From NCBI GenBank assembly GCA_947488345.1, contig CANKZQ010000002.1:62001-126000 (forward strand): 64,000 nt of DNA, in the 5' to 3' direction. Positions 4,119 to 53,411 of this stretch are shown in pieces. The stretch comes from an uncultured Flavobacteriaceae bacterium. GTDB taxonomy: Bacteria > Bacteroidota > Bacteroidia > Flavobacteriales > Flavobacteriaceae. The position numbers were made by a program, and so were the translations under genes. The notes beneath the pieces were generated by a model, which had not been told where the DNA came from, ran no database searches, and saw nothing but the letters and a program-made list of their open reading frames with translations. How positions within the stretch are numbered: the first letter of the stretch is position 1; every line of letters begins with the position of its first letter.

Positions 4119-4369
4119 GTATTTTCGTTGTTATTTGGTTTTAAAGTTTAAAAATGGTCATTCTCTCGTGACTGAGCAAGGATTGTGAATAAGTGTTGAT
4201 AAAGTTCGACTCTAGTTAGTAAGAGCATCCTACAATTGAGCTATACTTGTCAACTAAGATGAGATGCAATTTCGTCGAAATATAATTTCAAGGCACAAGG
4301 TTTTGGTCAATAAAAATGAATATTTAATCATAATTATTGTTTAATTAATGTTGAATAAAGTCTTGTTTG

Positions 4370-6770: not shown

Positions 6771-6784
6771 TTGATGATTATTTA

Positions 6785-6868
6785 ATGCAAATATATCTCT
6801 TTTATTGCCGATATCCAAAAATATCGGCTTTTTTACCGATAATTTAAAATATCGTCTTTTTTACCGAT
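6785..6868 (-). repeat. Three tandem 28-bp repeats over the satD promoter (probable operator)
   Basis: Read on the minus strand, three copies start with ATCGG at 6868, 6840 and 6812, exactly 28 bp apart. By eye copies 1 and 2 agree at 23 of 28 positions and copies 2 and 3 at 21 of 28. Across copies 2 and 3 lies a perfect inverted repeat with 8-bp arms GCCGATAT/ATATCGGC (6807-6828). The third copy contains the -7 box, so a protein bound here would block RNA polymerase. The downstream helix-turn-helix protein is the natural candidate. Confidence 0.7.
6788..6819 (-). promoter_or_regulatory. Bacteroidota-type promoter for satD-DUF3307
   Basis: On the minus strand TTTG (6819-6816), a 20-bp spacer and TATATTTG (6795-6788) match the -33/-7 consensus of Bacteroidota sigma factor promoters. 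Transcription would begin near 6783, leaving a leader of about 13 nt before the ATG at 6770. Confidence 0.7.
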
Positions 6869-6911
6869 AATACTATTAACTCTTATAACGTATTAATTGC
6901 TGTATATTGTG

Positions 6912-6939
6912 TTGCTGATCGCAGTTTTTGTTATTTTTG
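6912..6939 (+). promoter_or_regulatory. Candidate promoter for rdgB
   Basis: TTG (6912-6914), a 17-bp spacer and TATTTTTG (6932-6939) match the Bacteroidota consensus. The box ends 3 bp before the ATG at 6943, so the transcript would be leaderless or nearly so if this site is used. Confidence 0.5.
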
Positions 6940-6942
6940 AGC

Positions 6943-7536
6943 ATGAAAATAGTCTTCGCCACACACAATCAACATAAATTGCGAGAAGTACAAAGCTTAT
7001 TGCCTCTCACAATTGAATTATTGAGCTTGACAGATATCGGTTGTACCGAGGAAATTTTAGAAACTGCAACTACACTTGAAGGCAATGCGAAAATCAAGGC
7101 CAATTATATCACAAATACCTATGGCTATGCTTGTTTTGCTGATGATACGGGCCTCGAAGTTGCTGTGCTTGACGGAGAGCCTGGGGTGTATTCGGCGCGC
7201 TATGCTGGGGATCACGCTGATGCGGAAGCTAATATGAGTAAGCTGCTCCTTAATTTAGTGGGTAAGAGCGATAGAAGTGCGCAATTTAAAACGGTGGTGG
7301 TTCTAAATCTTAATGGAAGACAGCATGTTTTTGAAGGTGTATGCAAAGGAGAAATCTTATCTACACGGCAAGGGACGCAAGGTTTCGGTTATGACCCTAT
7401 TTTTAAACCTCATGGATTCGACACTTCCTTTGCTCAGATGTCTATGGAAGAAAAAGGGCGCATTAGTCATAGGGGTAAGGCTATTGCCTTACTCGTAGAG
7501 TTTTTAAAGGATTCAGCAGCTAGTGTAAAGCCATGA
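6943..7536 (+). CDS. rdgB: Non-canonical purine NTP pyrophosphatase (RdgB/HAM1)
   Basis: The start is the ATG at 6943, giving MKIVFATHNQHKL, the canonical RdgB N-terminus; the frame opens five codons earlier without homology. The 197-residue protein carries the family motifs ATHNQHK, CFADDTGLEV, PGVYSARYAG, GFGYDPIF and SHRGKA. It hydrolyses ITP, dITP and XTP to the monophosphates, keeping deaminated purines out of DNA and RNA, in the cytoplasm. It is divergent from satD and convergent with the heme membrane protein gene, whose end is only 5 bp away, so it is probably a single-gene unit. Confidence 0.96.
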   Translation: MKIVFATHNQHKLREVQSLLPLTIELLSLTDIGCTEEILETATTLEGNAKIKANYITNTYGYACFADDTGLEVAVLDGEPGVYSARYAGDHADAEANMSKLLLNLVGKSDRSAQFKTVVVLNLNGRQHVFEGVCKGEILSTRQGTQGFGYDPIFKPHGFDTSFAQMSMEEKGRISHRGKAIALLVEFLKDSAASVKP

Positions 7537-7541
7537 TGTAT

Positions 7542-8153
7542 CTATATTTTCTTTCGAAACAAGATGGAAATCCTTAATAAAAGTACGATTACCGCAATAA
7601 CAGCAAATACAATCCGCAAAGGACTTGTCATTTCTAGTATATAGGATTTTGCAAAAATAACCCATAACAAATACCCACCGATCGTATGTATACGTTTCCA
7701 GTTATGCGCTCCAAAGAGATTACGAGTCTTGTCAAAGGAGGTTAGTGTCATAATGGTTATAAATGCATAAGCTGTTGCGCCAAAAGCGGTTCTAAATAAG
7801 CCTCTATCCTCAAACACATTGAAATTGATGTGCAAGGTCATTAACAGTAGCATTGATAAGTGAATATAATGCGAGATAGCAAAAGATACTCCGATATAAC
7901 GCCTATTGGTCAAGAGCCATTTTGTAAAGCTATTCTTAGCATGGTGGTGTAGGGAAGAGGCTACAAAAGCCATCATAAACAATACAAAAGATAATTTGGC
8001 TGTTGATCGAATTAAAACACTTACTGTTTCTTTTGTATTGATGTCCAGCGTCACTAATGTTGTGACTACATTGGAAATCAATAGAATGCTAATAATTCCT
8101 GTAAGCGACCATCCAGAAAAGATATTCTTTGTTGGGAGGCTGGAGGTGCTCAA
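7542..8153 (-). CDS. Ferric-reductase-like (MsrQ-like) heme membrane protein
   Basis: The 203-residue protein has about six hydrophobic helices and the histidines expected of the ferric reductase-like transmembrane domain, in SSLHHHAKN, ISHYIHLSML and NWKRIHTIGGYLLW. Members of this fold bind two b-type hemes and pass electrons across the inner membrane; MsrQ serves the periplasmic methionine sulfoxide reductase MsrP. No msrP gene is nearby, so the partner is unknown. The start appears to be TTG at 8153, 2 bp after the parC stop, which suggests co-transcription with parE-parC. Confidence 0.72.
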   Translation of the reverse strand: MSTSSLPTKNIFSGWSLTGIISILLISNVVTTLVTLDINTKETVSVLIRSTAKLSFVLFMMAFVASSLHHHAKNSFTKWLLTNRRYIGVSFAISHYIHLSMLLLMTLHINFNVFEDRGLFRTAFGATAYAFITIMTLTSFDKTRNLFGAHNWKRIHTIGGYLLWVIFAKSYILEMTSPLRIVFAVIAVIVLLLRISILFRKKI

Positions 8154-8155
8154 AA

Positions 8156-10807
8156 CTAAAACAAGGTTGGTTGTCCGTCCTGGTCATTGGCTGTATCATC
8201 CTTTTTTGTTGTGGTATTTACATTGTCTTCTGCGGGAGTATCTCCTTTAACTTGTTCTTCTTCCACAACTTCAACTGCATTTACTTCGGGCTCTTCGTAC
8301 GGTAAAGATTCTAATAAATTTACCTGTTTTATTTTGTCTCTAGTTAATTGATTTCCAATTGCTTTAATTCCCTTTATTGAAATGAATTCTTCAAAATTTA
8401 TCGATTCGTTTTCTAGGCTGCGTTTTGAGAAAACTACCTCTGCCATCGGTCTAAAATCTGTGGATACAATCTCTAGATTTGACTTGGGATGTTCACTAAT
8501 AAATTGCTCTTCTTTATTCGGATTGTCAATCATAAAACGTTTGACATAATAGCACTCTTTAGAGCCATCATAATGGACCGCTGAAATAGGTTTATTCGGA
8601 ATCCATTTCTCGAGTACAATCATATTGCTGTCGAAATGTGTTGATAGTTCGGGACGAATAGTTTTTACCATTCCAGATTGTGTAATGATTAATAGTCTAT
8701 CTTCCGCAGTAAATTCACCTAGTAATTCCCCTCTGTTGTCAACATTTAGGCGTTGTACGGTATCATCGAACCAAATTTTTCTAGGTTTTAGGGTAGAAAT
8801 GCCTTTTTCTTTAAGTTCTATACGTTTTACACTGTACTTAGTTACGGTATTTCCGCGACTACCTCGGCCCTTAATGGCCAAATCTGCAAAATCGATATCC
8901 CATTTTAGTTTTTTGACACTGCCCACCGCTCGCAGATGTACAGTTACTACTTCTGCTTCTCCATTAGGGTTCGCTGAGAAATATAGTACTTTAGAAAGTT
9001 TATTGCCAGCAGTTAAGTCATATTCCTTATCACGTGTTACAGCAGTTACAGCAAAGCGTTTCATGTAGGTTGGTCCTGATTTGCCATCCTTATAGATCAT
9101 ATTATACACCGTACGCTTATCACTTTTCTTAAAAACCGCTACGTGAATGATGTTTTTACCTACAAAAGTTTTGGAGTCTAGTTTAGTAACAGTCATTTTT
9201 CCATCTGCTCTAAAGACTATTATGCTGTCAATATCAGAACAGTCAGTTACGAACTCATCTCGGCGTAAAGAAGTACCAACAAACCCTTCTTCTCGATTTA
9301 CATAGAGCTTGGCATTTTTCATAGCTACTTTCGACGCTACAATGTCTTCAAAAATGCGAATTTCTGTCTTGCGCTCCTTGCCCTTACCGTATTTGGTTTT
9401 TAGGTTTTTAAAGTAATCAATCGCGTACTCAATCAGATTTGCCAAATGATTCTTTACTTCGGCAATCTTATCTTCTAAGCTTTCGATATGTTGTTTTGCC
9501 TTGTCAATATCAAATTTTGAGATTTTCTTAATTCGAATCTCTGTCAAACGAACAATGTCCTCCTCGGTTACCGCGCGCTTTAAATGCTTTGTATGCGGTT
9601 TTAAGCCTTTATCAATAGCTTTAATCACTCCTTCCCAAGTTTCTTCCTCTTCGATGTCGCGGTAGATCCTATTTTCAATAAAGATACGTTCTAGAGATGC
9701 GAAATGCCATTGCTCTTCTAATTCGCCTAACTGAATCTCGAGTTCTTGTTTAAGTAGATCTACGGTATGATCTGTTGATCGACGTAGCATTTCTGTTACC
9801 CCAATAAAAACAGGTTTGTTATTCTCTATGATACAAGACAACGGAGAAATCGATTGTTCACAGTTCGTGAATGCGTACAAAGCGTCAATGGTTTTGTCTG
9901 GAGACACACCATTTGGTAAGTGGACTAAAATTTCTACATTGGCGGCAGTATTGTCTTCAATACGCTTAATTTTTATCTTGCCTTTTTCATTGGCCTTAAT
10001 GATTGATTCAATTAAAGAAGAAGTTGTAGTGCTATATGGTATTTGACTGATTATTAACGTATTTTTGTCTAATTGAGAAATGGCGGCACGCACCCTTACT
10101 TTACCGCCACGTAGCCCGTCATTATAGTTTGTAACGTCGGCGATACCACCAGTTAAGAAATCGGGCACCAATTTAAAACTTCTCCCTTTAAGATGCTTTA
10201 TCGATGCATCAATCAATTCATTAAAGTTGTGCGGTAGTATTTTTGTGGAAAGACCTACAGCGATTCCTTCGGCGCCTTGTGCGAGTAACAGCGGAAATTT
10301 AACGGGCAGATCAATAGGTTCTTTTCGTCTCCCGTCATACGATGATTGCCATTCTGTCGTTTTCGGGTTGAAAACAACTTCTAAAGCAAATTTTGAAAGT
10401 CTGGCTTCAATATAACGTGAAGCAGCTGCGCGGTCACCGGTTAAGATATTTCCCCAGTTTCCTTGCATATCAATCAATAACTCCTTCTGACCTAGTTGCA
10501 CCATAGCGTCGGCAATACTGGCATCTCCATGGGGATGATATTGCATCGTATGTCCGACCAAATTGGCTACCTTATTATAACGGCCGTCATCTAGGTCTTT
10601 CATAGACTGCATAATACGACGCTGTACAGGCTTGAAACCATCATCGATGGCAGGAACTGCACGTTCTAGAATTACGTACGACGCATAATCTAAAAACCAA
10701 TCTTTGTACATACCAGTGACCTTGGTAATGGTCTCTTCGGTATGACTTTCTTCTTGTTGGTTATGTTCTAAATTATCGTCTTCTATGTCGTTATGTTCTT
10801 CTTGCAT
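8156..10807 (-). CDS. parC: DNA topoisomerase IV subunit A
   Basis: The 883-residue protein contains the breakage-reunion domain with the conserved QYHPHGD motif (about 89-95) and the catalytic tyrosine at residue 132 in AASRYIEARL. A coiled-coil and tower region follows, then beta-pinwheel repeats that lack the GyrA box, ending in an acidic tail. With ParE it decatenates daughter chromosomes and relaxes supercoils. Its ATG overlaps the stop of parE by one base, so the pair is translationally coupled. The acidic low-complexity C-terminal 50 residues vary widely in this family. Confidence 0.96.
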   Translation of the reverse strand: MQEEHNDIEDDNLEHNQQEESHTEETITKVTGMYKDWFLDYASYVILERAVPAIDDGFKPVQRRIMQSMKDLDDGRYNKVANLVGHTMQYHPHGDASIADAMVQLGQKELLIDMQGNWGNILTGDRAAASRYIEARLSKFALEVVFNPKTTEWQSSYDGRRKEPIDLPVKFPLLLAQGAEGIAVGLSTKILPHNFNELIDASIKHLKGRSFKLVPDFLTGGIADVTNYNDGLRGGKVRVRAAISQLDKNTLIISQIPYSTTTSSLIESIIKANEKGKIKIKRIEDNTAANVEILVHLPNGVSPDKTIDALYAFTNCEQSISPLSCIIENNKPVFIGVTEMLRRSTDHTVDLLKQELEIQLGELEEQWHFASLERIFIENRIYRDIEEEETWEGVIKAIDKGLKPHTKHLKRAVTEEDIVRLTEIRIKKISKFDIDKAKQHIESLEDKIAEVKNHLANLIEYAIDYFKNLKTKYGKGKERKTEIRIFEDIVASKVAMKNAKLYVNREEGFVGTSLRRDEFVTDCSDIDSIIVFRADGKMTVTKLDSKTFVGKNIIHVAVFKKSDKRTVYNMIYKDGKSGPTYMKRFAVTAVTRDKEYDLTAGNKLSKVLYFSANPNGEAEVVTVHLRAVGSVKKLKWDIDFADLAIKGRGSRGNTVTKYSVKRIELKEKGISTLKPRKIWFDDTVQRLNVDNRGELLGEFTAEDRLLIITQSGMVKTIRPELSTHFDSNMIVLEKWIPNKPISAVHYDGSKECYYVKRFMIDNPNKEEQFISEHPKSNLEIVSTDFRPMAEVVFSKRSLENESINFEEFISIKGIKAIGNQLTRDKIKQVNLLESLPYEEPEVNAVEVVEEEQVKGDTPAEDNVNTTTKKDDTANDQDGQPTLF

Positions 10808-13701: not shown

Positions 13702-16700
13702 ATGAACCGACCGAATACTTTTACCAAGGTAAAGTTGTTTTTTATTGCAACTTTATTTTTTCTCCCTTATTTTATGAATGCTCAAACTACAGTACCTTTC
13801 GAGAAAAGGTATGAGAATGTAGGTATTAATGGAGATTTAACCATGGTAGGAAATTCTATCGTTGGTCAAGATGCTACAGCACCTTATAATGGGGGAAGCA
13901 ATAACAATAGTTTTTCAGCCGTCTATATTGATGTTGACACAGATGCCTCGACATTTAGTTCAAGTAGTGCTGCGTTAACTGGACTTACCAGTTGTGATAG
14001 AGTGGTATATGCCGGACTGTATTGGGGGGCCAATGTAACACTAGCGACTCAAACTCCAGAAACCATAAAATTTAGACCTCCAGGAGGTTCGTATATAGAT
14101 ATAACCGCCGACACGGCAGATGCTACTTTACGAGAACAGCTAGATGTCATGTATTATAAAGATGTAACTAGTATTGTTACAGGTCTCTCTAACCCTTCGG
14201 GGGATTATTTCGTTGCAAACGTATCATGTGAAACAGGTGTTGGAAATAGGGCAGCGGGTTGGACGATGGTCGTTGTGTACGAAAGTCCAACAAAGCCGCG
14301 TAAATACATCACTACTTTTGATGGATTCTCTAATGTAAGTCCGAGTAATACAGAGCAGTTTAGTTATTCTGGTTTTGTGACACCACCATCAGGTAGTGTG
14401 CAGGGTAGAATTGGTTTGGGTGCATTAGAAGGAGATAGAGCATTAACAGGAGAACAATTGTTTTTTGCCGATGCTATTGTACCGGCTACGGATCCAAATA
14501 GTAGTTTTGATTTATTATTTGATGCTGAAAATCCAGCTGATAACTTTTTTAATAGTAAGGTGACGATCGATGGAGCTCAGGTAACGACCAGAAATCCAAA
14601 TAGTACAAATACCTTAGGATGGGATACAGCGATTGTAGATTTAGATCCGCTCAATAATCCGAATGCTCCGCTCACGGAAAATCTTATATTAGCGAATGGT
14701 GCGACCGATGCTACCGTTAGAGTAGCCACAACCGGAGATAGAATTCTAACTTTTTTAAATACGTTTGCGGTAGATATAATCGAACCAGTAATTGATGTAT
14801 TAACAAGTGTAGAAGACACTTCGGGTAATGCGATTACTTTAGGATCACCAGTATCTTTGGGCGCTACTGTTGTGTATAATATTAATTTTGAGAATTCAGG
14901 TACCGATGGCGCCTTAAATACGGAGGTAGTAAACACCTTACCATTTAATGTAACTTTAGATGAAACAAGTATTCAATTTTTGGATGCTACTGATACTCCA
15001 TTAGCCCCAGGTCTAATAACATATACATATAATACTACTACTAGGCAGTTGACGTTTACGATAGATGATTCGTTAGTGTTAAAAGATGGATTAGCTGGTT
15101 CATATAATATTAGATATCAAGTAACGGCCTCGAATGATTGTTTTGACTATACGGATGCCTGTACCAATTTACTCGAAAACTTTTTAGAAACTTCTTATGA
15201 CGGTGAAACCTCAGGAACCAATATTACAGGTCAACCTGGGTTGAATGGAGTAAATGGTTGTGGATTAGGTAATCCTGGATCAATGGACTTATTCGTAGAC
15301 ACAAGCTCATGTAATTTTGATAGTACCTTGACATTTTGTAATAATAATTTGACATTTTCTGGTGATGATGGATATAATTTATATGAATGGGTGGATGAAA
15401 CGGGTACCAATATTGGTAATACGAAAGAAATTACCGTAACCGGACCAGGAATATATACAGTAACACAAACAAGAACAGGTTGTTCTATAACTACGAGAGT
15501 GGTGACTGTATTAGGTTTAGATGTTACTTATACACCATCAGATGCATTATGTAGAAATAGTGCTGACGGAACGATAGCTGTTCAAGTTAATGAAGCTTCA
15601 GCCAATTTTACATTTGAATTGTTTAAAGGTGGTGTACTACAAGAAACAACAGGCGCAATCACAGCCGACAATCATGTATTTACAGGTTTAGATATTGGAA
15701 CCGATTATTCAATACGTGTCACGAATGCTGCTGGATGTTTTGATTTTCAAACAACTGGTTTAACAGTAACCGAGCCAACGCTCCTGCAAGCTACTAATGT
15801 GGTAAGTGATAATATAATGCCTTGTAATGGAAATTTATTGAGTGGTAGAATTGAGGTTAACGCCAATGGAGGTACGCAATTTACTGCAACTGGTGATTAT
15901 GAATATAGCATGGACGGGGGCGCTTTTCAAGAGTCGAATGTATTTAATACTACTGTCCAAGGAAATCATACCATTACCGTTAGAGATCAAAATAACTGTA
16001 CAACCACTACTGTCGCTAATGTAGGTTTCGATGACGAAATTGCGTTTAACATGTCGAAAGTAGATGTGAATTGTGCAAATAGCACCAACGGTTCTATCAC
16101 AGTCAATCTCACGCAAAATACTGCAGGTAATACTATGACATATAGTATTGATGGCGGTACAACATTCCAGAACTCACCTGTATTTAATGGGTTGGGAGTT
16201 GGAGATTACTCCATAATTATCCGTAAAGAAAAAGGGATTAATAGCTGTGAAACAACAGTAACAGAAAGTATCAATCAGTTGATATTTTTAGAATTCGAGG
16301 CAACGGGAGGTTTTTCTTGTTCTGGAAGTATTAATACAATTACTGCAACCGTTGCACCGGCATATGCAAATGAAGTAACGTATATCATGGATGGTACTAT
16401 TACCAACACAACGGGTATTTTTGAAAATGTAACACCTGGTTTACATAGTGTAACTGCAAGACATAATACATTCTTATGTGAAGCACCACCTGTTGAAGTA
16501 AGTGCATTGGCATATACGCCAATGAATATACTAGGTGTGAATCAGCAAATAGATAATCCGAATCAATATGATATTAGTTTCTCTGGTGGAGTTGCCGATT
16601 ATCAATATGCAATGCTCCCAGGAAGAATAACCGATGTGACTGTTACGGATGATGATTTTGGAGACGAGAATCTCTTTACGATTAATGCAGATGGTTTCTA

Positions 16701-17034
16701 TACTTTCTTTGTGAAGGATACCAATGGGTGTATTGTCGAATTTGAAGCAGAATTGGAGTTTTTAGATCTTGAGATTCCTAATTTCTTTACACCAAATGGA
16801 GATACTTTTAATGATGAGTGGTATCCTAGAAATATTCAACCATATCCGAACATTACTGTTGAAGTATTTGATAGATATCAGCGCTTAATTGTGGCTTTTG
16901 AAGGAATTAACAATTCTTGGAATGGCTATTATAAAGGAAAACCTTTGCCTTCTGGAGACTATTGGTATGTTGTCAAGTTGAATAGTCTAACCGATGACCG
17001 CGTGTTTAAAGGAAATGTAACATTGTATAGATAA
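13702..17034 (+). CDS. Large secreted adhesin-like protein with T9SS type B sorting domain
   Basis: The 1110-residue protein has a signal peptide (about residues 1-27), an N-terminal beta-rich region, and a DUF11-like domain near 360-460 (VVYNINFENSGTDG). Several cysteine-bearing SprB-type repeats follow between about 540 and 900, for example the block around YSMDGGAFQES and NHTITVRDQNNCT. The last 85 residues (NFFTPNGDTFNDEW to FKGNVTLYR) are a type B C-terminal domain that directs export by the type IX system and surface attachment. It is followed by its probable outer-membrane partner at 17062. The role is likely adhesion or gliding; the ligand is unknown. Confidence 0.92.
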   Translation: MNRPNTFTKVKLFFIATLFFLPYFMNAQTTVPFEKRYENVGINGDLTMVGNSIVGQDATAPYNGGSNNNSFSAVYIDVDTDASTFSSSSAALTGLTSCDRVVYAGLYWGANVTLATQTPETIKFRPPGGSYIDITADTADATLREQLDVMYYKDVTSIVTGLSNPSGDYFVANVSCETGVGNRAAGWTMVVVYESPTKPRKYITTFDGFSNVSPSNTEQFSYSGFVTPPSGSVQGRIGLGALEGDRALTGEQLFFADAIVPATDPNSSFDLLFDAENPADNFFNSKVTIDGAQVTTRNPNSTNTLGWDTAIVDLDPLNNPNAPLTENLILANGATDATVRVATTGDRILTFLNTFAVDIIEPVIDVLTSVEDTSGNAITLGSPVSLGATVVYNINFENSGTDGALNTEVVNTLPFNVTLDETSIQFLDATDTPLAPGLITYTYNTTTRQLTFTIDDSLVLKDGLAGSYNIRYQVTASNDCFDYTDACTNLLENFLETSYDGETSGTNITGQPGLNGVNGCGLGNPGSMDLFVDTSSCNFDSTLTFCNNNLTFSGDDGYNLYEWVDETGTNIGNTKEITVTGPGIYTVTQTRTGCSITTRVVTVLGLDVTYTPSDALCRNSADGTIAVQVNEASANFTFELFKGGVLQETTGAITADNHVFTGLDIGTDYSIRVTNAAGCFDFQTTGLTVTEPTLLQATNVVSDNIMPCNGNLLSGRIEVNANGGTQFTATGDYEYSMDGGAFQESNVFNTTVQGNHTITVRDQNNCTTTTVANVGFDDEIAFNMSKVDVNCANSTNGSITVNLTQNTAGNTMTYSIDGGTTFQNSPVFNGLGVGDYSIIIRKEKGINSCETTVTESINQLIFLEFEATGGFSCSGSINTITATVAPAYANEVTYIMDGTITNTTGIFENVTPGLHSVTARHNTFLCEAPPVEVSALAYTPMNILGVNQQIDNPNQYDISFSGGVADYQYAMLPGRITDVTVTDDDFGDENLFTINADGFYTFFVKDTNGCIVEFEAELEFLDLEIPNFFTPNGDTFNDEWYPRNIQPYPNITVEVFDRYQRLIVAFEGINNSWNGYYKGKPLPSGDYWYVVKLNSLTDDRVFKGNVTLYR

Positions 17035-45082: not shown

Positions 45083-45119
45083 TTTGTAACAAAACTGAGA
45101 GAATTCCTACATATATTTG
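45083..45119 (+). promoter_or_regulatory. Candidate promoter of the six-gene AAA+ operon
   Basis: TATATTTG at 45112-45119 is an exact -7 match. The nearest TTTG (45083-45086) is 25 bp upstream, slightly long for a -33 box. The leader to the ATG at 45205 would be about 80 nt. Confidence 0.45.
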
Positions 45120-45204
45120 AGTAGTTTCTCTTTCTATTTAGATTTTTTTAACGAAATTGCTTAGCCAAAAATATCTTGTTGAACCTTAAAAAACAATAAA
45201 CCAT

Positions 45205-46545
45205 ATGTCTGATGATTTTGATTTACTAGAAACTAGTTCTAATGAAAAAACCGAAAAAGTTGATGTGAACTGGGGCAAAGCGATCGATACCATGAAATCT
45301 AAACTCGCTCAAGAAGACGATCCACAAACACGTCAAAAAATACTGAACGCCACCTTAGATGATGTTGTGCATATGGCCGAGAAGGATAGAACTACCTTAT
45401 TGGATGCCATTAAAGATTTAACTGATTATCAAGATGAAGTAGGTATCATATTTGAGAAATTCTCTGCGTTGAATGCGGTGGAACAGAAAGTTATAGACGA
45501 CGCACAAAAAGGGCTCGAAAGAGCAAATGTAAAACTTGAAGATGCAGAAAATAAACCAAATACTTGGTGGAATAACCTTTGGGGACGAAAAAGTAAGATT
45601 AAAAAAGCGCAAGTCGAGCTACAAGAAGCTCAAAAGATTCGCGATGGAGCCGACAATAAGGCAAAAGCTATGTTTCAAGAGCGAATTGAAAGCGCTGACG
45701 TTCAAACATTGTTAAGTGAGTTGTCTTACAAAAGTCAGGCAGCGGTCACACGTTTAAAAAACAGAGAAGTTGAAATTAAAGAAGTTGAAGATAAATTGCA
45801 AACCGCCATTGTCGAAGCAACAAAGAACCATACCAAGGCCTTAGAGAAAAAGAAAGAGGTTGAATCTAAATTAGAAGAGCAATATGCGCTACTCAAACAA
45901 GTACGTCAAGAGCTTGAAGAAATTGTAGATAAACAATCTGCTGCTTATGCCGAAGCTGTCGGTAAAGTGACCACGGTAGAACAAAAGGTCGAAGAATTAG
46001 AAGGTTTGAAAAATGCCTATACCACCTTGGCTGCTAGTAAAGACAGTTTCGTTCACAAACATAATCTAACGATTAAGGTATTGACTTCCTTGCGAAGTAA
46101 TTTACAAACGCATCGTGCGAAGTTAAAAAGTGATACTGAAGAACGTTTGAAATATTATGATGGTTATGTAGTTGCCTTAAAAGCAAGAACAGATCAAGAA
46201 TTTGCTGCTATTTTAGAACATCTGGGTGTAAAGACTGATGAACATATTGGGGAAACCTTAGCTTCTATGCACACAGCAAGTGCGAAGGCTCGTCAAGAAA
46301 TGATGGATAATATTCCAGTACATGAAAAAGTAATGCAAGGTGTGTACGGCAGTTATGCTGAAGCTTTGCAGGAAATTAGAGCGAAAGATTCAGAGATTCA
46401 AAAGAACTTTGCAGATCGATATGGTATTGATATGAAAGAGATTTTTGAAGATTATTATAAGGCTGATGGTGCAGCTCCTTCTGAGGATGGAGATGAACCA
46501 GCTTCAGATCCCAAACCAACATCGAACGACGATTTATTGTCTTAA
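45205..46545 (+). CDS. Long coiled-coil protein, first gene of the six-gene AAA+ operon
   Basis: The 446-residue soluble protein is rich in Glu, Lys and Ala and is predicted to be nearly all helix. A coiled coil spans about residues 90-160 and another about 175-275. An amphipathic, tryptophan-rich segment (TWWNNLWGRKSKIKK, from residue 120) could touch membrane. The C-terminal 30 residues are acidic and disordered (APSEDGDEPASDPKPTS). No signal peptide or membrane helix is present. I recognise no family; the TelA and PspA families were considered and not matched. It is co-directional with five further genes, so it may be the structural partner of the ATPase at 47841. Confidence 0.7.
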   Translation: MSDDFDLLETSSNEKTEKVDVNWGKAIDTMKSKLAQEDDPQTRQKILNATLDDVVHMAEKDRTTLLDAIKDLTDYQDEVGIIFEKFSALNAVEQKVIDDAQKGLERANVKLEDAENKPNTWWNNLWGRKSKIKKAQVELQEAQKIRDGADNKAKAMFQERIESADVQTLLSELSYKSQAAVTRLKNREVEIKEVEDKLQTAIVEATKNHTKALEKKKEVESKLEEQYALLKQVRQELEEIVDKQSAAYAEAVGKVTTVEQKVEELEGLKNAYTTLAASKDSFVHKHNLTIKVLTSLRSNLQTHRAKLKSDTEERLKYYDGYVVALKARTDQEFAAILEHLGVKTDEHIGETLASMHTASAKARQEMMDNIPVHEKVMQGVYGSYAEALQEIRAKDSEIQKNFADRYGIDMKEIFEDYYKADGAAPSEDGDEPASDPKPTSNDDLLS

Positions 46546-46768
46546 AGGTTGGGCGTTTCAATTGCTGTATTGTTTATGATACTTTTCTCCATAAAAATTG
46601 AGATTGTATAGAAATACGGCAATTGTCAGGCTTTGCGCTATATCTTTTCTTTTAGCATGTTAAACCCAGTCTGAGCGTTTCTTAAAAAAGAAAAGGATGT
46701 CGCTGCAATCCTTAACGCACAAGGAATGAACTTTTTTGTAGAACTTAAAATTGAATAGTTAAACTAAT

Positions 46769-47833
46769 ATGTCTGTCAATCATATCGTAACACCTTTAGA
46801 TTCTGCAGTTTTAGACTCTAAAGAACAGTATGTTTTCTATCATAAAATGGTAGATTTTGCACTCAAAGAATTGATTGTAAGAGTGCAACAAAAAAACTTA
46901 TGTACACAGCAAGAAGTATTTTTCTTCAAACAATATGCTGATTTACTCTTGTATTCTATTGAAGCCATGCGCATTAAATATATGTATGATGATGAAGACA
47001 ATATGAAAGTAGATTTAACAGATTCTGGATTTCCAAATTATCTAGAGTTACGTTATTTGTATAATGACTTGTCGTTACGTGATAATTATATTAATAAGTT
47101 AACAGATGTAAGTGTTTTGCAAGATCAATTTTTAGATCAATTATTGCGAAAAAAAGAACCAGTAAGAAGTGATAAGCTTTTTCAAGCCGCATCTATAGTA
47201 TACTATACTTCGGTAGAACAACAGTATATTTTTAATCGTTTTGTGCAAGGAAAAATCATTGATGCTCCCGAAGGTATAGAGGCAAAATTTATGACGAGTT
47301 GGAGTTTTTATGATGTTGCTCACAATAGACCCTTCATTTGTTTTATGTATTTCGATTATAATGGAAAGACAACAAAGAAAGAAAAAGAGCTCATATATGA
47401 TGTGCTAAAAACAACGGCTGACAGAGAAATGTCATTAGATACCATGGCGTATACCATCGATAGAAGGTTGCCTGATTTGATTCCTAAGCATATAAAAAGG
47501 GTAGATTTAGGCCCATTCCACAACATTTTTGCAAAGGATGAACATGTCATAACACATGCCATTTTAGATAGTATCGCTAAAAAAGAAATTCCTATAGAAT
47601 CATATGCTTTATCCCTAAAAATTGATGAAGTATTTTCTGGAGATACTTTTGAAGAAGGAAGTTTTTTCTCCAAGCAAGTGTTACAACGTTGGAGCGATGT
47701 TGTGCATCAAAAGTACATATTAGCGCCACATAGAATTATTCAATTGCTTTATAACAAGGCGCCAGAAACATTAAATAAATTAGCAAAACCACCGATTGAA
47801 CTTGCCGATCTTAAAATTGATAAATTAGACTAA
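46769..47833 (+). CDS. Helical protein of unknown function, six-gene operon
   Basis: The 354-residue protein has no signal peptide and no membrane helix and is predicted mainly helical. Sequence landmarks include IEAMRIKYMYDDEDN, FMTSWSFYDVAHNRPFICFMYFDYNGKTTKK and KHIKRVDLGPFHNIFAKDEHV. No domain was recognised. It lies 223 bp after the coiled-coil gene, the only large gap in the run, and 7 bp before the AAA+ ATPase gene, so it is closely tied to the ATPase. A role as adaptor or substrate handler is inference. Confidence 0.65.
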   Translation: MSVNHIVTPLDSAVLDSKEQYVFYHKMVDFALKELIVRVQQKNLCTQQEVFFFKQYADLLLYSIEAMRIKYMYDDEDNMKVDLTDSGFPNYLELRYLYNDLSLRDNYINKLTDVSVLQDQFLDQLLRKKEPVRSDKLFQAASIVYYTSVEQQYIFNRFVQGKIIDAPEGIEAKFMTSWSFYDVAHNRPFICFMYFDYNGKTTKKEKELIYDVLKTTADREMSLDTMAYTIDRRLPDLIPKHIKRVDLGPFHNIFAKDEHVITHAILDSIAKKEIPIESYALSLKIDEVFSGDTFEEGSFFSKQVLQRWSDVVHQKYILAPHRIIQLLYNKAPETLNKLAKPPIELADLKIDKLD

Positions 47834-47840
47834 ATTAACT

Positions 47841-49805
47841 ATGGAACATAACTCAACCTTTCCCATTAAACAAAGCGAACTTGATATGCTTCGCGATGAA
47901 GCTGCATCGTATTTAAAAAGTATACAATGGGAGCAAGGACAAAGAGCAAAGAATAAGGACAAAGATGCTAAAGATGAGTCTATTTTATTATATCTATCAA
48001 GAGCCAATAATGGAAGTAGTGCCGCCAATATCACATCAGTTTCTAAGACCATTTTAGCCTTAAAAAAGAGACTTTTGCCTGATTCTGTAGCAATTCCTAT
48101 TTGTCTGAACCAAACCTTATACGCAGTTCAGGAAGGAATTACCTTGGGTATATGGATTAAAGACAGCTACTATGATGCTTCTGGATTGTCTAGTTTAAGC
48201 GAGAACAAATCTGGTCTTGATACTAGCGGAAAAAGAGAGTTCGAAAGTAAAATGCATACCGCAACGGCTTTTATGTTGTTTGCAACGGCCTATAATATTT
48301 TGCATAATTTAAAAGAAACGGCTTCAGATGATTTAAGTGTCATGAAACAAAAGTTCGCCGGAATTCCTGAAGTGTCTTTGTTATCTCCGTTAAAAGGAAT
48401 TGGCTGTAGCCTATTTTATTATGATAAATATTTAGGGCATCCCGATATTATTAAGAGCGATCAAGATGTAGTCGATTTTACAGTGGTGTATTTTGAAGCT
48501 TTAATTGATGAAATTCAATTAAGAAAAAGTGCACTCGAATATACCGAAACCATTGTTGATAGAACCTATAAGTTAGAAAAATCAGAGTTCGCTGTTTCCG
48601 GATGGGATAATGTGTTCGCTGGTGCTGCGAAAAGTGTTGAGTTTAACAAAATTCAATTTGAACAAATTGTAGGAAATAGAGATGCTAAACATTTTGCACG
48701 TCGCCTTACCGAGCGGATGCTGAGCTATGATTTTACAGCAAAGAAAAATCCGTTTCAAGAATTAGGAGGTTTTATGCCTGTTTTTATGGGATATGGTATT
48801 CCAGGGACTGGAAAAAGTATGCTAATTGCAGCTATCGCAACACGTCTAAAAGAACATTGTGATAATTTAGAATTACCATTCTTATTTCACCCAATGCCAG
48901 ATACATTGATTTCAACATTTCAAGGAGGGTCTGCCGAAAAAATGGTAGAATGGATGAAGCCTTTACAAGATCCTACAAAGTTGATTTTTGCGCCTATCGA
49001 TGATGCAGAAAATAATTTGCAAGAACGTACGGCTCAAGGAGTGTCGGCCGGTGTAAAAGAAGTGATTGGTGTTTTTCTAAGATATACAGAAGGCGCGTAT
49101 GCCGTAAATTACGGAAATAGTTCCGTAGGATTATTCACCAATTTGCCAGAAATGCTCGATAAAGCAGTTATTTCTAGAGTGCAAGGACGTTTTAAGATAG
49201 ATGGAGCACGAACAGAACATGATTTCTTAGATCAAGATCACCTTTGGTGGCGTAAACTACAAGAAACAATGCCTGAATTTGTGAATATGAAAGGTCCAAA
49301 CGATTATACATACTTGAGTAATCAAGGGTTGGCGAAAAGCATGGGTGAAATCTTAAATTTAACAGAAAAACCTACAGAAGAGCGTGTGTTGCAAACCTAT
49401 GAAAAAGTAGAGAAATTGCATCGAGCAAATGATCATATGTTTTACGCTAGTTTATATAAAGAAATACAACAAATATTTCCATTTTTCTCTTCACGTGATG
49501 TTCGAAATATACAATCGGCAGTTTCCTTGCGATTAACCGATTTTGATTTAGAGCAGGACTGGTTTGAAAATCCAGAAAAGTATTTCAAACAACCATATGA
49601 AACGAAATTCAACATGCTACAAGAATTAATGAAAGCGAATATGAAAGGATTGAACTTTTCAGATATTAGAAGGCAAGAAGTGGTAAGATATTTAGATAAT
49701 GTTGCGACCATCGCCGATACAGACTTTAAACGTAAAGTTGACGGTAGAGTAAATCAATTGAATATTGATTTAGAAGCGAGAGAACAGTTTGAAAAGGGTA
49801 GATAG
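47841..49805 (+). CDS. Classic-clade AAA+ ATPase with divergent Walker B
   Basis: The 654-residue protein has an all-helical N-terminal region (about 1-300) and one AAA+ module. Walker A is GIPGTGKS (319-326). A pore-loop-like block ISTFQGGSAEKMVEWM (357-372) precedes Walker B LIFAPIDDAE, where Asp387-Asp388 replace the usual Asp-Glu. The second region of homology is TNLPEMLDKAVISRVQGRF (433-451), as in FtsH, p97 and Vps4 enzymes, with Arg446 and Arg450 as candidate fingers. It is therefore a remodelling ATPase, hydrolysing ATP to thread or disassemble a partner. The next gene is 5 bp downstream. Substrate unknown; the coiled-coil protein is the obvious candidate. Confidence 0.85.
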   Translation: MEHNSTFPIKQSELDMLRDEAASYLKSIQWEQGQRAKNKDKDAKDESILLYLSRANNGSSAANITSVSKTILALKKRLLPDSVAIPICLNQTLYAVQEGITLGIWIKDSYYDASGLSSLSENKSGLDTSGKREFESKMHTATAFMLFATAYNILHNLKETASDDLSVMKQKFAGIPEVSLLSPLKGIGCSLFYYDKYLGHPDIIKSDQDVVDFTVVYFEALIDEIQLRKSALEYTETIVDRTYKLEKSEFAVSGWDNVFAGAAKSVEFNKIQFEQIVGNRDAKHFARRLTERMLSYDFTAKKNPFQELGGFMPVFMGYGIPGTGKSMLIAAIATRLKEHCDNLELPFLFHPMPDTLISTFQGGSAEKMVEWMKPLQDPTKLIFAPIDDAENNLQERTAQGVSAGVKEVIGVFLRYTEGAYAVNYGNSSVGLFTNLPEMLDKAVISRVQGRFKIDGARTEHDFLDQDHLWWRKLQETMPEFVNMKGPNDYTYLSNQGLAKSMGEILNLTEKPTEERVLQTYEKVEKLHRANDHMFYASLYKEIQQIFPFFSSRDVRNIQSAVSLRLTDFDLEQDWFENPEKYFKQPYETKFNMLQELMKANMKGLNFSDIRRQEVVRYLDNVATIADTDFKRKVDGRVNQLNIDLEAREQFEKGR

Positions 49806-49810
49806 GGGCA

Positions 49811-51046
49811 ATGAAAAAACTGAGAGAGGCAAATTTGTACAGAGGAGAGTTGATTCCGATAAGCGGAAAACTCGTTACGCGTTATAACCAATGCTTGGAA
49901 AAGCTTGGATTTACCAAAACAAAACTCAAAACATTCTCAATCGATGGTATAGGATGGAGTCCCGAAATTGCTGAGGAAAAAGATGAAATGCATTATCTGA
50001 ACAATGGTGAGGCTAATTTGCATGGTATCGTTATTACTCCATTACAGAAAGGAAAACCGGTATATGTACCATTTCATTCATTCGATAGAGAAATGATGCG
50101 TGAGATCTTTAAAATTCACGGAGATAAGATCAATGATATTACACGCGATTCTGCGATATGCATAGATTTCGATCAGGATATCGATGCGTTTTACGAGCCC
50201 TTAGATATTCTAAAATATGAAAGCATAAGAATTAGTTTTCATCTTATCAATAATTTAGATGAAGCTCAAAAGGAGCAATTGAAACTAATAGACACGTTTA
50301 AGCAAGGAAATAATTTCATAGACGAAAATTTACACCAACAACTACTCGGATCTGCAAAAAAATATGGTGATTTACGACATAGAGATGTTTCGTTGTCTGA
50401 AATACATTTTACAGCGAATTCTTTTTATACAAAGGCCTTTGGGGGTATTTATGTTTTGCGCGATTTTGTAGCCCCGATTGTGGTCTTTGAAGAGGAGAGT
50501 TCATATAAAGAAGCCATTAAAGATACCGTTCATGATGTGATGATTTATCATATCGAACAACATGAGTTAGTCAACCAATTACGCGATCATGTAATTATCG
50601 ATTATGATCTAGATCGAGATGTGAGAACCAAGCGTTACGAGCGAATAAAAAAATATATTTTCTCACAACATTTGAAGAAAACACAGCACCCAATTAAGGA
50701 TATTTTAAGTGATTCGTTGCTCTTTAAAAGCTACCTGAACAAAATGGAACTTGAAGCACGTAAACGAGTAATGAGTGTAGAGCGCTACCTTGAAAAATCT
50801 GAAATCAGCAATGAGTATAAAATTGTGGATATCGTTGATCAAAAAATGTTTCATGCCTTACATAGTCCACATTCTTCATTAGAGCCTAAACATCAGGATC
50901 TTATTTGGAAATTACTCGTAAATGTTGCACCAAAGGATATACTGTTTTTGTATTGGTATGATAAAGAAGAATTTTATGAGCAGTTTAAGACCTGGGATGA
51001 ATCTATGAAGGATTGGGTTATTCATACCATCCGTAACAATATTTAA
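49811..51046 (+). CDS. Conserved protein of unknown function, six-gene operon
   Basis: The 411-residue soluble protein starts 5 bp after the ATPase gene. It begins ANLYRGELIPISGKLVTRYN and contains FSIDGIGWSPEIAEEKDEMHYLN, then a region rich in His, Asp and Tyr (RHRDVSLSEIHFTANSFYTKAFGGIYVL) and a helical C-terminal half. It may belong to a Bacteroidota-restricted domain of unknown function that I cannot name with certainty. No catalytic motif is evident. Its tight linkage suggests it acts with the ATPase. Confidence 0.68.
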   Translation: MKKLREANLYRGELIPISGKLVTRYNQCLEKLGFTKTKLKTFSIDGIGWSPEIAEEKDEMHYLNNGEANLHGIVITPLQKGKPVYVPFHSFDREMMREIFKIHGDKINDITRDSAICIDFDQDIDAFYEPLDILKYESIRISFHLINNLDEAQKEQLKLIDTFKQGNNFIDENLHQQLLGSAKKYGDLRHRDVSLSEIHFTANSFYTKAFGGIYVLRDFVAPIVVFEEESSYKEAIKDTVHDVMIYHIEQHELVNQLRDHVIIDYDLDRDVRTKRYERIKKYIFSQHLKKTQHPIKDILSDSLLFKSYLNKMELEARKRVMSVERYLEKSEISNEYKIVDIVDQKMFHALHSPHSSLEPKHQDLIWKLLVNVAPKDILFLYWYDKEEFYEQFKTWDESMKDWVIHTIRNNI

Positions 51047-51131
51047 AAATTATAGACTAATTTAGTAAGAGGATAAATCGAAAACTTGTTTAATTCTGAG
51101 CAGGATATGAATTTTAAAAAAAGAAGAACTT

Positions 51132-51659
51132 ATGACACTTGAACTCATTGTATTTATTGCAACCATATTATTTGGAGCCTTGTTGTATTGGAGAGAATCT
51201 AACGGGAATGGGTTGTATCGATTTTTCAATAAGATTGTCAATTCTAAAGAACTACAGATGAAACCTGATGATAAAACAGGATTCGTTTACCAACAATCCT
51301 TTTTATTACGATTAGTGTTCATTTCATTTCTTTTTTTAATAGGTATTGTAATTACTCGTTTTGTAATTCCAATAGACTTAGCGACCCTTTCACTATTCGC
51401 TTCCATGATTGCTGGGACAGTTTTAGGCACGTATTTGGCCAATTTCATATTTAAATCTTCAGAAGTTATTGATGAAAAGAGTGATTCTTTAGAAGATATA
51501 GTGCACGATACAATAGAGAAAGGAAAGGATATGTTAGGAGATTTGAAACAAAAAGAGGCTCCGATAAAAGAAATCATCGAAGAACCAGAACCAGAAGCAC
51601 CTAAAGTAGAGAAAAAAAGTGCTCGAGAACGTTTGAAAGACAAAGGCTATTTAAAATAA
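51132..51659 (+). CDS. Small membrane protein, six-gene operon
   Basis: The 175-residue protein has three hydrophobic helices (about 3-20, 55-76 and 80-108) and a long charged C-terminal tail (about 110-175, with EEPEPEAPKVEKKSARERL) that should face the cytoplasm. No family was recognised. It starts 85 bp after the preceding gene and ends 10 bp before the large membrane protein. It may anchor the cytoplasmic parts of the operon products to the inner membrane; this is inference from topology and gene order. Confidence 0.65.
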   Translation: MTLELIVFIATILFGALLYWRESNGNGLYRFFNKIVNSKELQMKPDDKTGFVYQQSFLLRLVFISFLFLIGIVITRFVIPIDLATLSLFASMIAGTVLGTYLANFIFKSSEVIDEKSDSLEDIVHDTIEKGKDMLGDLKQKEAPIKEIIEEPEPEAPKVEKKSARERLKDKGYLK

Positions 51660-51669
51660 GAAATTCAAA

Positions 51670-53379
51670 ATGATAAAAAGTTACTGGCAAAAAGGAACCA
51701 AACAGAAGATTATTACAATAATATTGGCAATATTGGTTGCCGTGATACTATTTGTACTGCGCGATGATTACCAACCCGCAATCCTCTTTCTTAGAAAATT
51801 CTTGTTTGTTATTTTATTTTGTGGTTTGATCACTTTTATTGCCTTGCGTAGCTTTAGAAAATCACCGAGTGCAGGAAAACGCGTTGGTATTTTAACCATC
51901 TTATTGGTGTTTTTTGGAATCGTATACGTAATCGGTTGGCATTTTAACATGTATGATTATATGAAAACATACAATGTTTTTAATAATCTAAACAAACAAG
52001 AAATAAATGAGCTCCCATTAACGCAAAACGAACGTATCCAACCTTTACAAAATATTTCGTCGATGGCCAATGAGTCTGTGGGAGAAACCAAAGATGTATC
52101 TCTACCACATTTGGTAAGAGTTGATGGGCAGAATAAATGGACCATGGCTATTCAACCAACCGAAAAGTACATTTGGCAACGTATCAATGATAATACCGAA
52201 GAAGTATTTTCAGTATCCAGTACCACACCATTTCCAAGATTTTCAAGTGAAAATCGCATTTCTGTTACCTTTTCAATTGGTGAATCCTTAAAGTTTAGCA
52301 GAAATACCTACAATGCGGTGGTGCAACGTATGACTGCCTTACAATATTTGACAACCGAACCTGGGGATGTTTTTTACATGAAAAATGACAACAATCATTG
52401 GGTACAAGTAGTGAGTTTGATCAAATGGAAAGGGTTCTTCTTTCCTTATCCGACGTTTGGTGGTGTCGTGGTAATTGAAAGAGGGGAGCATGATTTTAAT
52501 GATTATGTTGAGCGAACCTTTCTCGGAAAAGGCACTTATATTTCTCCAGATGACATGGTAAATCATCCTTATTTGATAGGTCAAAACACATTGTCAGAAA
52601 AAGTTTCAAGATTGCAGGCAGAGTCTTTGAAATTTTTAGGCGGATTTAGCGATCCGTTACCATGGAATATGGAAACTGCAGTAAAAATCCCGAATTTACC
52701 AAAAGATCAAAATCAACAACCGTACGTAACAGATTTTAATTTTACAGATACAGAAATAGATGCTTTTAATGGTTTGTATCATTGGTTCGGACTTGAACCA
52801 GTAGGTGAGGATCGTACCAGTTTAACTCATAGTGTTTTTGTGCCCGCTGACGGATCTAATAAATTATATTACTACGATCATTCTTCAAAAAAAGAAGGAT
52901 ATGCGGGTGTATCCGCAATGCCTTTAAAAGTGAAAGAATCAAAGAAAGAATATGACTGGGACGCAAATACCCCTGTTGAGTTTAGACCTTATATCAAAGA
53001 AATAGCAGGAAGAAAACGACTATTTTTTCTAGGAACCGTGTCGGCAATTAGCGATAGCAATTCAAGTCAGTTTGATGGTTCAGCAACACCCGACTTAGCT
53101 TTAATTGATAGTGAGTATCGTGATGTGGTATGGATTGATGCAAAGCACCCAAGTAGATGGGATAAATTGGTATATGATCAGCTAAACGAAGCTTGGCGAT
53201 CAAGTGAAAACATTGATTTTTACTATAAAGATGAAGGAAAGTTGAAAGATACTTCTCAACCCTTATTAGATTCCGTTAAGGAAATCTCCAAGATTGATCC
53301 AGAAGTGGCCGCAATTAATGAATGGCAACGAAAAATCGATTCTGTAAAAATGCTCAAAGCGAAAGATACATTACAATAG
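51670..53379 (+). CDS. Large membrane-anchored protein, six-gene operon
   Basis: The 569-residue protein has three N-terminal hydrophobic helices (about 13-31, 38-59 and 73-92), then a 470-residue soluble domain that, with an odd number of helices, could lie on the opposite side from the N-terminus, likely the periplasm. The domain has tryptophan-rich segments (GQNKWTMAIQPTEKYIWQRIN) and FPYPTFGGVVVIERGEHDF, but no known motif. It ends in a charged helical tail. It closes the operon and is followed after 7 bp by a terminator. Function unknown. Confidence 0.65.
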   Translation: MIKSYWQKGTKQKIITIILAILVAVILFVLRDDYQPAILFLRKFLFVILFCGLITFIALRSFRKSPSAGKRVGILTILLVFFGIVYVIGWHFNMYDYMKTYNVFNNLNKQEINELPLTQNERIQPLQNISSMANESVGETKDVSLPHLVRVDGQNKWTMAIQPTEKYIWQRINDNTEEVFSVSSTTPFPRFSSENRISVTFSIGESLKFSRNTYNAVVQRMTALQYLTTEPGDVFYMKNDNNHWVQVVSLIKWKGFFFPYPTFGGVVVIERGEHDFNDYVERTFLGKGTYISPDDMVNHPYLIGQNTLSEKVSRLQAESLKFLGGFSDPLPWNMETAVKIPNLPKDQNQQPYVTDFNFTDTEIDAFNGLYHWFGLEPVGEDRTSLTHSVFVPADGSNKLYYYDHSSKKEGYAGVSAMPLKVKESKKEYDWDANTPVEFRPYIKEIAGRKRLFFLGTVSAISDSNSSQFDGSATPDLALIDSEYRDVVWIDAKHPSRWDKLVYDQLNEAWRSSENIDFYYKDEGKLKDTSQPLLDSVKEISKIDPEVAAINEWQRKIDSVKMLKAKDTLQ

Positions 53380-53386
53380 TAGATAT

Positions 53387-53411
53387 AAGCTCCTTAATTG
53401 GAGCTTTTTTT
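53387..53411 (+). terminator. Rho-independent terminator of the six-gene operon
   Basis: The stem AAGCTCC/GGAGCTT (53387-53393 with 53400-53406) has a 6-nt loop and a T-run to 53411. It begins 7 bp after the last operon stop. Confidence 0.85.

Follow-up and report, generated by a model that had tools for sequence, protein, structure and literature searches.

What could six neighbouring genes do together when only two of their products reach the cut-off of a curated family? The question is raised by a locus in a 64,000-nucleotide stretch of DNA, here called the window, from an uncultured Flavobacteriaceae bacterium (GenBank assembly GCA_947488345.1, contig CANKZQ010000002.1, positions 62,001 to 126,000); the window belongs to contig 2 of a 3.8-Mb genome. 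An earlier note on this DNA described six co-directional open reading frames (ORFs), and all six indeed lie on the forward strand with the positions and lengths given there: g1, a coiled-coil protein of 446 residues (45205-46545); g2, a 354-residue protein with no predicted transmembrane segment and outside known families (46769-47833); g3, an AAA+ ATPase of 654 residues (PF00004; 47841-49805); g4, a 411-residue member of DUF6638 (PF20343; 49811-51046); g5, a 175-residue membrane protein with about three transmembrane helices by hydropathy (51132-51659); and g6, 569 residues, with three N-terminal transmembrane helices, again by hydropathy, and a large domain (51670-53379). The six genes are one conserved unit, which recurs in marine flavobacteria and looks like a so far unstudied AAA+ operon. 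We tentatively read it, with somewhat less than even confidence, as one ATP-driven remodelling machine that would act on a coiled-coil assembly and would be linked to the membrane in Bacteroidota.

Searched against GTDB genomes, the g3 alignment picked up at least 535 related stretches, the best 80 of which were used, a selection that skews the locus set towards close relatives. They come from Wocania, Flavivirga, Psychroserpens, Winogradskyella, Polaribacter and Tenacibaculum, genera that we take to belong to Flavobacteriaceae, from uncultured Flavobacteriaceae and, in two cases, from bacteria assigned to Bacteroidia only. When the ORFs of 97 loci were scored with iterated profiles of the six genes, trained partly on the same loci, the order g1-g2-g3-g4-g5-g6 was found on one strand in 89. 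A further seven loci, from more distant Bacteroidota, brought five complete sets, the other two being truncated at contig ends, and one additional rhizobial locus contributed g1-g4. All six genes were present in 94 of the 105 loci (103 distinct g3 genes, two loci sharing the same one), and the order was kept in 94 out of 94. The 11 incomplete loci are four proteobacterial ones with g1-g4 only, five contig-end cuts, and two entries of a split Tenacibaculum contig, which appear to be one contig, its g3 and g4 lying about 9 kb apart; this gap holds a 1490-residue ORF in the direction of the operon and two in the opposite direction. The claim of a conserved unit was thus borne out across Bacteroidota, with no independent scattering of the genes among relatives, and a search for a named system matching the six found none, the only cut-offs reached being those of Pfam AAA and DUF6638.

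The unit is patchily distributed. Among 40 relatives, g3 gave 11 matches at E ≤ 0.001: eight span the whole protein, the own genome being among them, one lies at a contig end and two are weak. Profile searches found g3 in 87 of 299 genomes of the family and g1 in 76 of 249; every one of the 76 g1-positive genomes was also g3-positive, and the 11 g3-positive genomes with no counted g1 were probably outside the 249-genome g1 sample. Outside Flavobacteriaceae the operon is rare. The window g3 matched 9 of 198 genomes of the class at E ≤ 0.001 (5 at full length, including its own genome), a larger class sample had g3 in 9 of 395 genomes, three of them from its own family, and a phylum sample had it in 5 of 395, all from its own family. 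In the orders of three further carriers the counts were 7/108, 1/1 and 2/9, each including the carrier itself, and PF20343 was found in 4 of 296 phylum genomes and in none of 14 control genomes.

Eleven genomes of the same genus gave no g3 match. In the six most complete of these, which were examined for the site, the carboxyltransferase gene (window 43323) adjoins the gene of the NADPH-dependent FMN reductase family that follows the operon in the window at 53499 (6/6). The gene for EttA (TIGR03719) lay within the fetched stretch at 62 of 101 Bacteroidota loci, and the pairwise distances of the operon genes correlated with those of EttA (Pearson coefficients of 0.33 for g1, 0.47 for g2, 0.57 for g3, 0.49 for g4 and 0.58 for g6; 0 of 999 Mantel permutations for each of these five genes). 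The distances of the six operon genes correlate mutually at 0.44-0.73 in the close set. All this fits an old, frequently lost chromosomal locus rather than a mobile island; the agreement with EttA is not proof of it, because related loci share history. Median pairwise identity in the close set was 0.857 for g1, 0.853 for g3, 0.762 for g6, 0.705 for g2, 0.691 for g4 and 0.597 for g5, and between the close and the distant loci 0.428 for g3, 0.359 for g6, 0.314 for g4, 0.284 for g2, 0.277 for g1 and 0.201 for g5.

The centre of the operon had been described as a classic AAA+ ATPase, and this description stands with the exception of the Walker B motif. The g3 protein scored 35.2 bits against PF00004 (cut-off 21.2), and its sequence matches in the PDB were VCP-like/Cdc48, Rpt4, Vps4 and Pch2. 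In the Walker A motif GIPGTGKS (residues 319-326; 48795-48818), G319 and P321-K325 are invariant in 105 of 105 g3 sequences and position 326 is S or T. Pore loop 1, STFQGG (residues 358-363; 48912-48929), has invariant S358, Q361 and G362, and is aromatic in all 105 sequences (F in 96, Y in 9). Sensor 1 N434 and the arginine fingers R446 and R450 (49140-49190) are likewise invariant in 105/105; the roles of the pore loop, sensor 1 and arginine fingers were assigned by alignment with known AAA proteins. The curated score, Walker A, sensor 1 and arginine fingers are those of classical AAA proteins, and the Walker B pattern hhhhDE is not: I386, D387 and D388 (48996-49004) give IDD instead of IDE in 105/105. 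Walker B normally carries a catalytic glutamate. As far as its alignment can tell, g3 carries the motifs of a substrate-threading AAA+ protein. We would claim family membership solely for g4, in DUF6638, and for g3, in the AAA superfamily with an unusual Walker B.

The coiled-coil protein g1 reached no Pfam cut-off in the window sequence, which gave six weak family matches. Its predicted model contains a long helical hairpin (residues 166-239 and 246-326), and shorter helices flank a Trp-rich stretch. Motif invariance was scored in a 27-row alignment, all Bacteroidota. The N-terminal FDLL motif (residues 5-8; 45217-45228) is invariant in it, as are W122, N123, L125, G127 and K129 of the Trp-rich tip WWNNLWGRK (residues 121-129; 45565-45591), which lies between two model helices, and L444 of the C-terminal NDDLLS motif (46525-46542). 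In 88 of 101 g1 proteins a [DN][DN]L[LM] pattern falls within the final 12 residues; the predicted local distance difference test score (pLDDT) is below 50 at residues 417-446, and the linker before NDDLLS is probably disordered. The four proteobacterial g1 proteins are gapped over the Trp tip, and the FDLL and C-terminal motifs were not seen in them. The tip and the short end motifs would accordingly be Bacteroidota additions, and we tie them to the membrane form because they are invariant in Bacteroidota and unseen in proteobacterial g1 proteins whose loci lack g5 and g6. In the close set, g1 is conserved to the level of the ATPase, which fits the packing of an ordered assembly; such slow evolution is limited to Flavobacteriaceae, because identity between close and distant loci is so low.

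The earlier note had listed two unknowns among the remaining proteins, which is right for g2 and not for the 411-residue protein. No Pfam, NCBIfam or PADLOC entry matched g2 at E ≤ 1, a single PHROG did so at 0.29, and the best PDB sequence match, Csm6 at E 0.012, was unconvincing; the protein has no transmembrane segment by hydropathy, and homologues occur in Vibrio and rhizobia. The g4 protein scored 120.7 bits against the curated Pfam family DUF6638 (cut-off 27). Its AlphaFold2 model, built with 40 homologues, was of high quality (pLDDT 91.6, predicted template modelling score 0.86) and consists of an alpha/beta first half and a helical second half, with no match at E ≤ 0.001 in the PDB (best E 0.64) or in BFVD (best E 0.37). 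The claim of two membrane proteins agrees with the hydropathy profiles, as both g5 and g6 have hydrophobic segments. The g5 protein ends in a charged tail with K169, D170, K171 and G172 (KDKG near the C-terminus) invariant in a 25-row alignment. The large domain of g6, with many invariant residues in its alignment, is strongly conserved and, judged from hydropathy and charges only, probably periplasmic; g6 gave no PDB sequence match at E ≤ 1.

The first four genes also occur outside Bacteroidota. Among 72,556 plasmid records, g3, g2 and g4 matched the same 10, and g1 those 10 plus one; the 10 are four Vibrio replicons of 0.88-0.94 Mb, four from Sinorhizobium, one from Shinella and one from Rhizobium leguminosarum. 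Vibrio vulnificus has g1-g2-g3-DUF6638 followed by mfd, and the window proteins found their Vibrio counterparts in the first round of BLAST (E values of 2e-7 for g1, 1e-6 for g2, 2e-65 for g3 and 2e-7 for g4). On the Vibrio replicons this core stands directly 5' of mfd, and an RNase H family gene and numerous hypothetical genes are close by. In Sinorhizobium and Shinella, first-round BLAST found g2, g3 and g4 and not g1; rhizobial g1 was detected from the window only through an iterated profile and matches Vibrio g1 directly at 36-37% identity. The g4 proteins of the window, Vibrio and Sinorhizobium are all members of DUF6638. In Sinorhizobium, an IS4-type element and an endonuclease-domain gene stand between g3 and g4.

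No g5 or g6 was found in the stretches of the four proteobacterial g1 loci. After g4, in the place that g5 and g6 take in Bacteroidota, Sinorhizobium has a gene of DUF2333 (PF10095), and in Shinella it likewise comes next after the core. DUF2333 proteins have two N-terminal hydrophobic segments and no detectable homology to g6; a relationship between the two was rejected at an hhalign probability of 1.3%. The gene was found neither in the Vibrio stretches examined (two loci, when rechecked, had g1-g4 and no DUF2333) nor in that of R. leguminosarum TP16. R. leguminosarum pSK03 (5989-8343 of its stretch) keeps DUF2333 together with a divergent g1, which the profile matched at E 8e-17, and has no remnant of g2-g4 beyond chance in the stretch; its neighbours are those of Sinorhizobium: choline transport genes and a thymidine kinase gene, with formate-tetrahydrofolate ligase further on. 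We regard membrane linkage as something that characterises the Bacteroidota form and that DUF2333 may provide at two rhizobial loci. It would not be a trait of the core, because Vibrio has g1-g4 with neither g5/g6 nor DUF2333 nearby and a g1 that lacks the Trp-rich hairpin. In the open-licence literature, DUF2333 was found at the P. fluorescens hcp3 locus, where it is one of the neighbouring genes and stands next to a putative NUDIX gene; the DUF2333 genes of Skermanella rosea and of a Rhodobacteraceae bacterium lie near pairs of sigma-70 family and anti-sigma genes. DUF6638, PF20343, PF10095 and COG5345 were not found mentioned in the open-licence literature, which does not imply their absence from print.

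From these results, a hypothesis regarding the working of the operon may be put forward. The g1 protein would probably assemble into an ordered structure, held in Bacteroidota on the inner membrane by its Trp-rich tip and by the short acidic/leucine motifs at both ends. A g3 ring with its aromatic pore loop would pull a flexible tail, most simply the C-terminal tail of g1 (linker and DDLL), and would thereby disassemble or turn over the g1 assembly. The g2 and g4 proteins would be obligate soluble partners, acting as adaptor or regulator, the cytoplasmic tail of g5 would anchor the complex, and g6 would sense or act in the periplasm. Expression would begin at a dedicated upstream element, and the purpose of the whole might be envelope maintenance. 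Judged from co-inheritance, motifs and architecture, a remodeller is the most economical reading, and we counted for it the pSK03 locus, where g1 and DUF2333 alone remain in the same synteny.

Several observations weigh against a membrane-linked remodeller of this kind. Vibrio keeps the core with neither g5/g6 nor DUF2333 in the examined stretches, and pSK03, a single, plasmid-borne record with a divergent g1, is slender evidence. Polymerisation, lipid binding and a role as substrate are predictions in the case of g1. Its model is poor (pLDDT 69.2) and resembles other folds only in a generic way, among them chemoreceptor models and F-BAR, Smc and alpha-pore-forming proteins (best E 0.012), and its close-to-distant identity of 0.277 is below those of g3, g6, g4 and g2. 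ATP turnover by g3 may be slow, because an aspartate replaces the usual catalytic glutamate of Walker B. Furthermore, the upstream element was not found at the 10 loci of the distant group, and terminator-like sites follow g1 at 4 of 88 loci, which speaks against a single transcript there.

The substrate may also be a different one. It is rather unlikely, in our estimate, that g3 with g2 and g4 serves as a quality or assembly factor for g6 or other clients, with g1 as a passive scaffold or spacer; for this speak the higher close-to-distant identity of g6 (0.359 against 0.277 for g1) and its many invariant residues, the joint loss of g2-g3-g4 from pSK03, where g1 and a membrane gene remain, and the unfoldases Cdc48 and the proteasomal ATPases among the PDB relatives of g3. 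However, the Vibrio core does without g5 and g6, and g1 accompanies g2-g4 in the same 10 plasmid records and never occurred without g3 in the 76 g1-positive genomes. The patchiness of the block in the family (87/299), its clean presence or absence, its variable small spacer genes and the weak AAA-domain matches of g3 to IetA models would also suit an anti-phage or other conflict system, which we consider improbable. PADLOC 2.0.0 gave seven weak matches over g1 and g3 and none for g2, g4, g5 or g6; they were AAA-domain, coiled-coil and one RT_IV cross-match only, the best (E 3e-5) to IetA through the AAA domain. That domain is all that g3 shares with IetA of the IetAS defence system: it scored 17.2 bits against an equivalog cut-off of 510 (NCBIfam), and none of the other five operon proteins reached a curated protease-family cut-off in Pfam or NCBIfam. 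The position near EttA and the correlated distances fit inheritance at a fixed site with losses. A phage origin was rejected, as g3 had no match in 50,697 phage records and, of 330 pattern matches in viral contigs, two were weak AAA-domain matches. PHROGs gave weak matches only, the best to AAA domains.

The earlier note had drawn a parallel with Vps4 acting on ESCRT-III and with the AAA partners of PspA-like proteins. The likeness lies in a coiled-coil gene next to an AAA+ ATPase with an aromatic pore loop, in the membrane proteins of the Bacteroidota operon, in the long antiparallel helical hairpin of the low-confidence g1 model and in a partner weakly akin to Vps4 among others. ESCRT tails have a C-terminal motif behind a flexible linker, comparable to the g1 tail. 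That the operon is a true, very divergent ESCRT-III/PspA-Vps4 system is nevertheless highly improbable. Homology of g1 was not supported by Pfam, PDB sequence, fold or hhalign searches: neither PspA_IM30 nor Snf7 was among the six weak Pfam matches of the window g1 (for 27 g1 members pooled, the best 25 of 59 Pfam families were inspected), hhalign gave E. coli PspA a probability of 0.8%, and no PspA/ESCRT-III entry stood among the best 50 of 623 fold matches, none of which had E ≤ 0.001. No MIT family was among the four Pfam matches of g3 at E ≤ 1, its Walker B reads IDD, and the operon has g2 and DUF6638 as extra conserved genes. Of the parallel, the AAA+ motifs and the two membrane proteins of Bacteroidota stand; membership of g1 in ESCRT-III/PspA is not supported, and the core does without membrane proteins in Vibrio. 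That the operon works like these systems is possible but unproven, being an analogy. Open-licence literature on Bacteroidetes membrane-remodelling operons with an AAA+ ATPase and a coiled coil yielded only a phage shock protein survey, which describes PspA/Snf7 operons with AAA+ ATPases and, in the parts consulted, no operon like g1-g6 (PMC11237479).

With a little less assurance than for the membrane-linked remodeller itself, we suggest that the operon may represent a further coiled-coil machine powered by an AAA+ protein, one that shares no ancestry with the ESCRT-III/PspA, SMC or dynein systems, with a soluble g1-g4 core common to Bacteroidota and Proteobacteria and a DUF6638 fold that lacks a known solved relative. 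Bacteroidota would have added the Trp-tipped hairpin, the docking motifs and two membrane proteins, and Flavobacteriaceae a dedicated promoter. If true, bacteria would have, besides ESCRT-III/PspA, one more way in which coiled-coil assemblies are coupled to ATP hydrolysis, and g1, g2, DUF6638 and g6 or DUF2333 would gain a common context in which they can be tested together. Close relatives that naturally have or lack the operon at one chromosomal site can be compared as they are, and conservation of the upstream element suggests a dedicated regulator.

This element, TGTAACA-N16-[CA]TAC-NN-ATA(A/T)TT (45085-45118, forward strand), is conserved upstream of g1 across Flavobacteriaceae; in the window, TGTAACA lies at 45085-45091, TAC at 45108-45110 and ATA at 45113-45115. 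Of 94 loci, 80 have TGTAACA within 300 bp upstream of g1, where shuffles predict 2.9, and the 14 loci lacking it are the 10 of the distant group and four others, three of these with TGTAACG or TGTAACT. The spacing TGTAAC-N17-TAC is kept in 75 of 84 aligned sites; two bases after TAC comes ATA, whose bases are each conserved in more than 90% of the 84. In 88 loci, 1.84 Mb altogether, the strict pattern was counted 79 times; the 64-kb window has it once. Its conservation suggests that the element is probably the promoter or a regulator site of the operon. We take its layout to resemble a promoter of the extracytoplasmic function (ECF) type, and would liken TGTAAC to the -35 element of B. subtilis SigX; TGTAACA itself was not found in the ECF literature among the matches listed. 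The ECF-type motif SM6 of F. psychrophilum has a CGT -10 box, which is absent from our element (PMC9723704). A wide regulon is unlikely: a scan of 464 kb, made up of the window and another 400 kb from its genome (together about 12% of the genome), gave four loose sites against 2.2 expected, with the strict match at the operon only.

Between the element and the g1 start lies a leader block, ACGAAATTGCT (45151-45161, forward strand); within 130 bp of g1, ACGAAATTGCT occurs at 62 and CGAAATTGCT at 73 of 88 loci. The earlier note had instead placed a -7 box at 45112 as the promoter signal. TATATTTG is present there (45112-45119), yet TAnnTTTG, the housekeeping -7 box, is not conserved upstream of g1: the window contains 90 such boxes against 88 expected, which is the chance level, and relatives have one upstream of g1 at 14 of 88 loci against 9.0 expected, so that the box was rejected as operon promoter for standing little above chance. 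At the 3' end, a terminator-like hairpin with a T-run (53387-53411, forward strand) starts 7 bases 3' of the g6 stop codon. A hairpin and T-run thus stand where the earlier note had placed a terminator, but such matches in the region are not above shuffles (4 against 4.4) and the terminator is weakly conserved: a stricter scan of relatives found one after g6 at 6 of 87 loci and after g1 at 4 of 88 (0.3 expected in each case), and none after g2-g5. The six genes may be read as one transcript or as more, given the 223 bp that separate g1 from g2, the 85 bp that separate g4 from g5, and a TAnnTTTG box 5' of g2 (10 of 88 loci, 5.5 expected).

The operon spacers of relatives carry small genes of their own. 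The g3-g4 spacer exceeds 200 bp at 68 of 94 loci, and it is mostly there that a NUDIX hydrolase is found (PF00293, 51.6 bits in one locus, at 4235-4825 of its stretch); of the 152 co-directional spacer ORFs, 58 belong to this cluster, and they come from 58 loci of Flavobacteriaceae. The g3-g4 spacer of the window has no NUDIX gene, and the nearest relative in its genome, 46% identical, is on another contig. Other variable spacer genes encode 23S rRNA intervening-sequence proteins and RDD proteins and, judged by eye, a GIY-YIG-like protein and several small membrane-like proteins. Elsewhere in the window, positions 13702-17034 encode a 1110-residue protein that carries a type B sorting domain of type IX secretion (TIGR04131).

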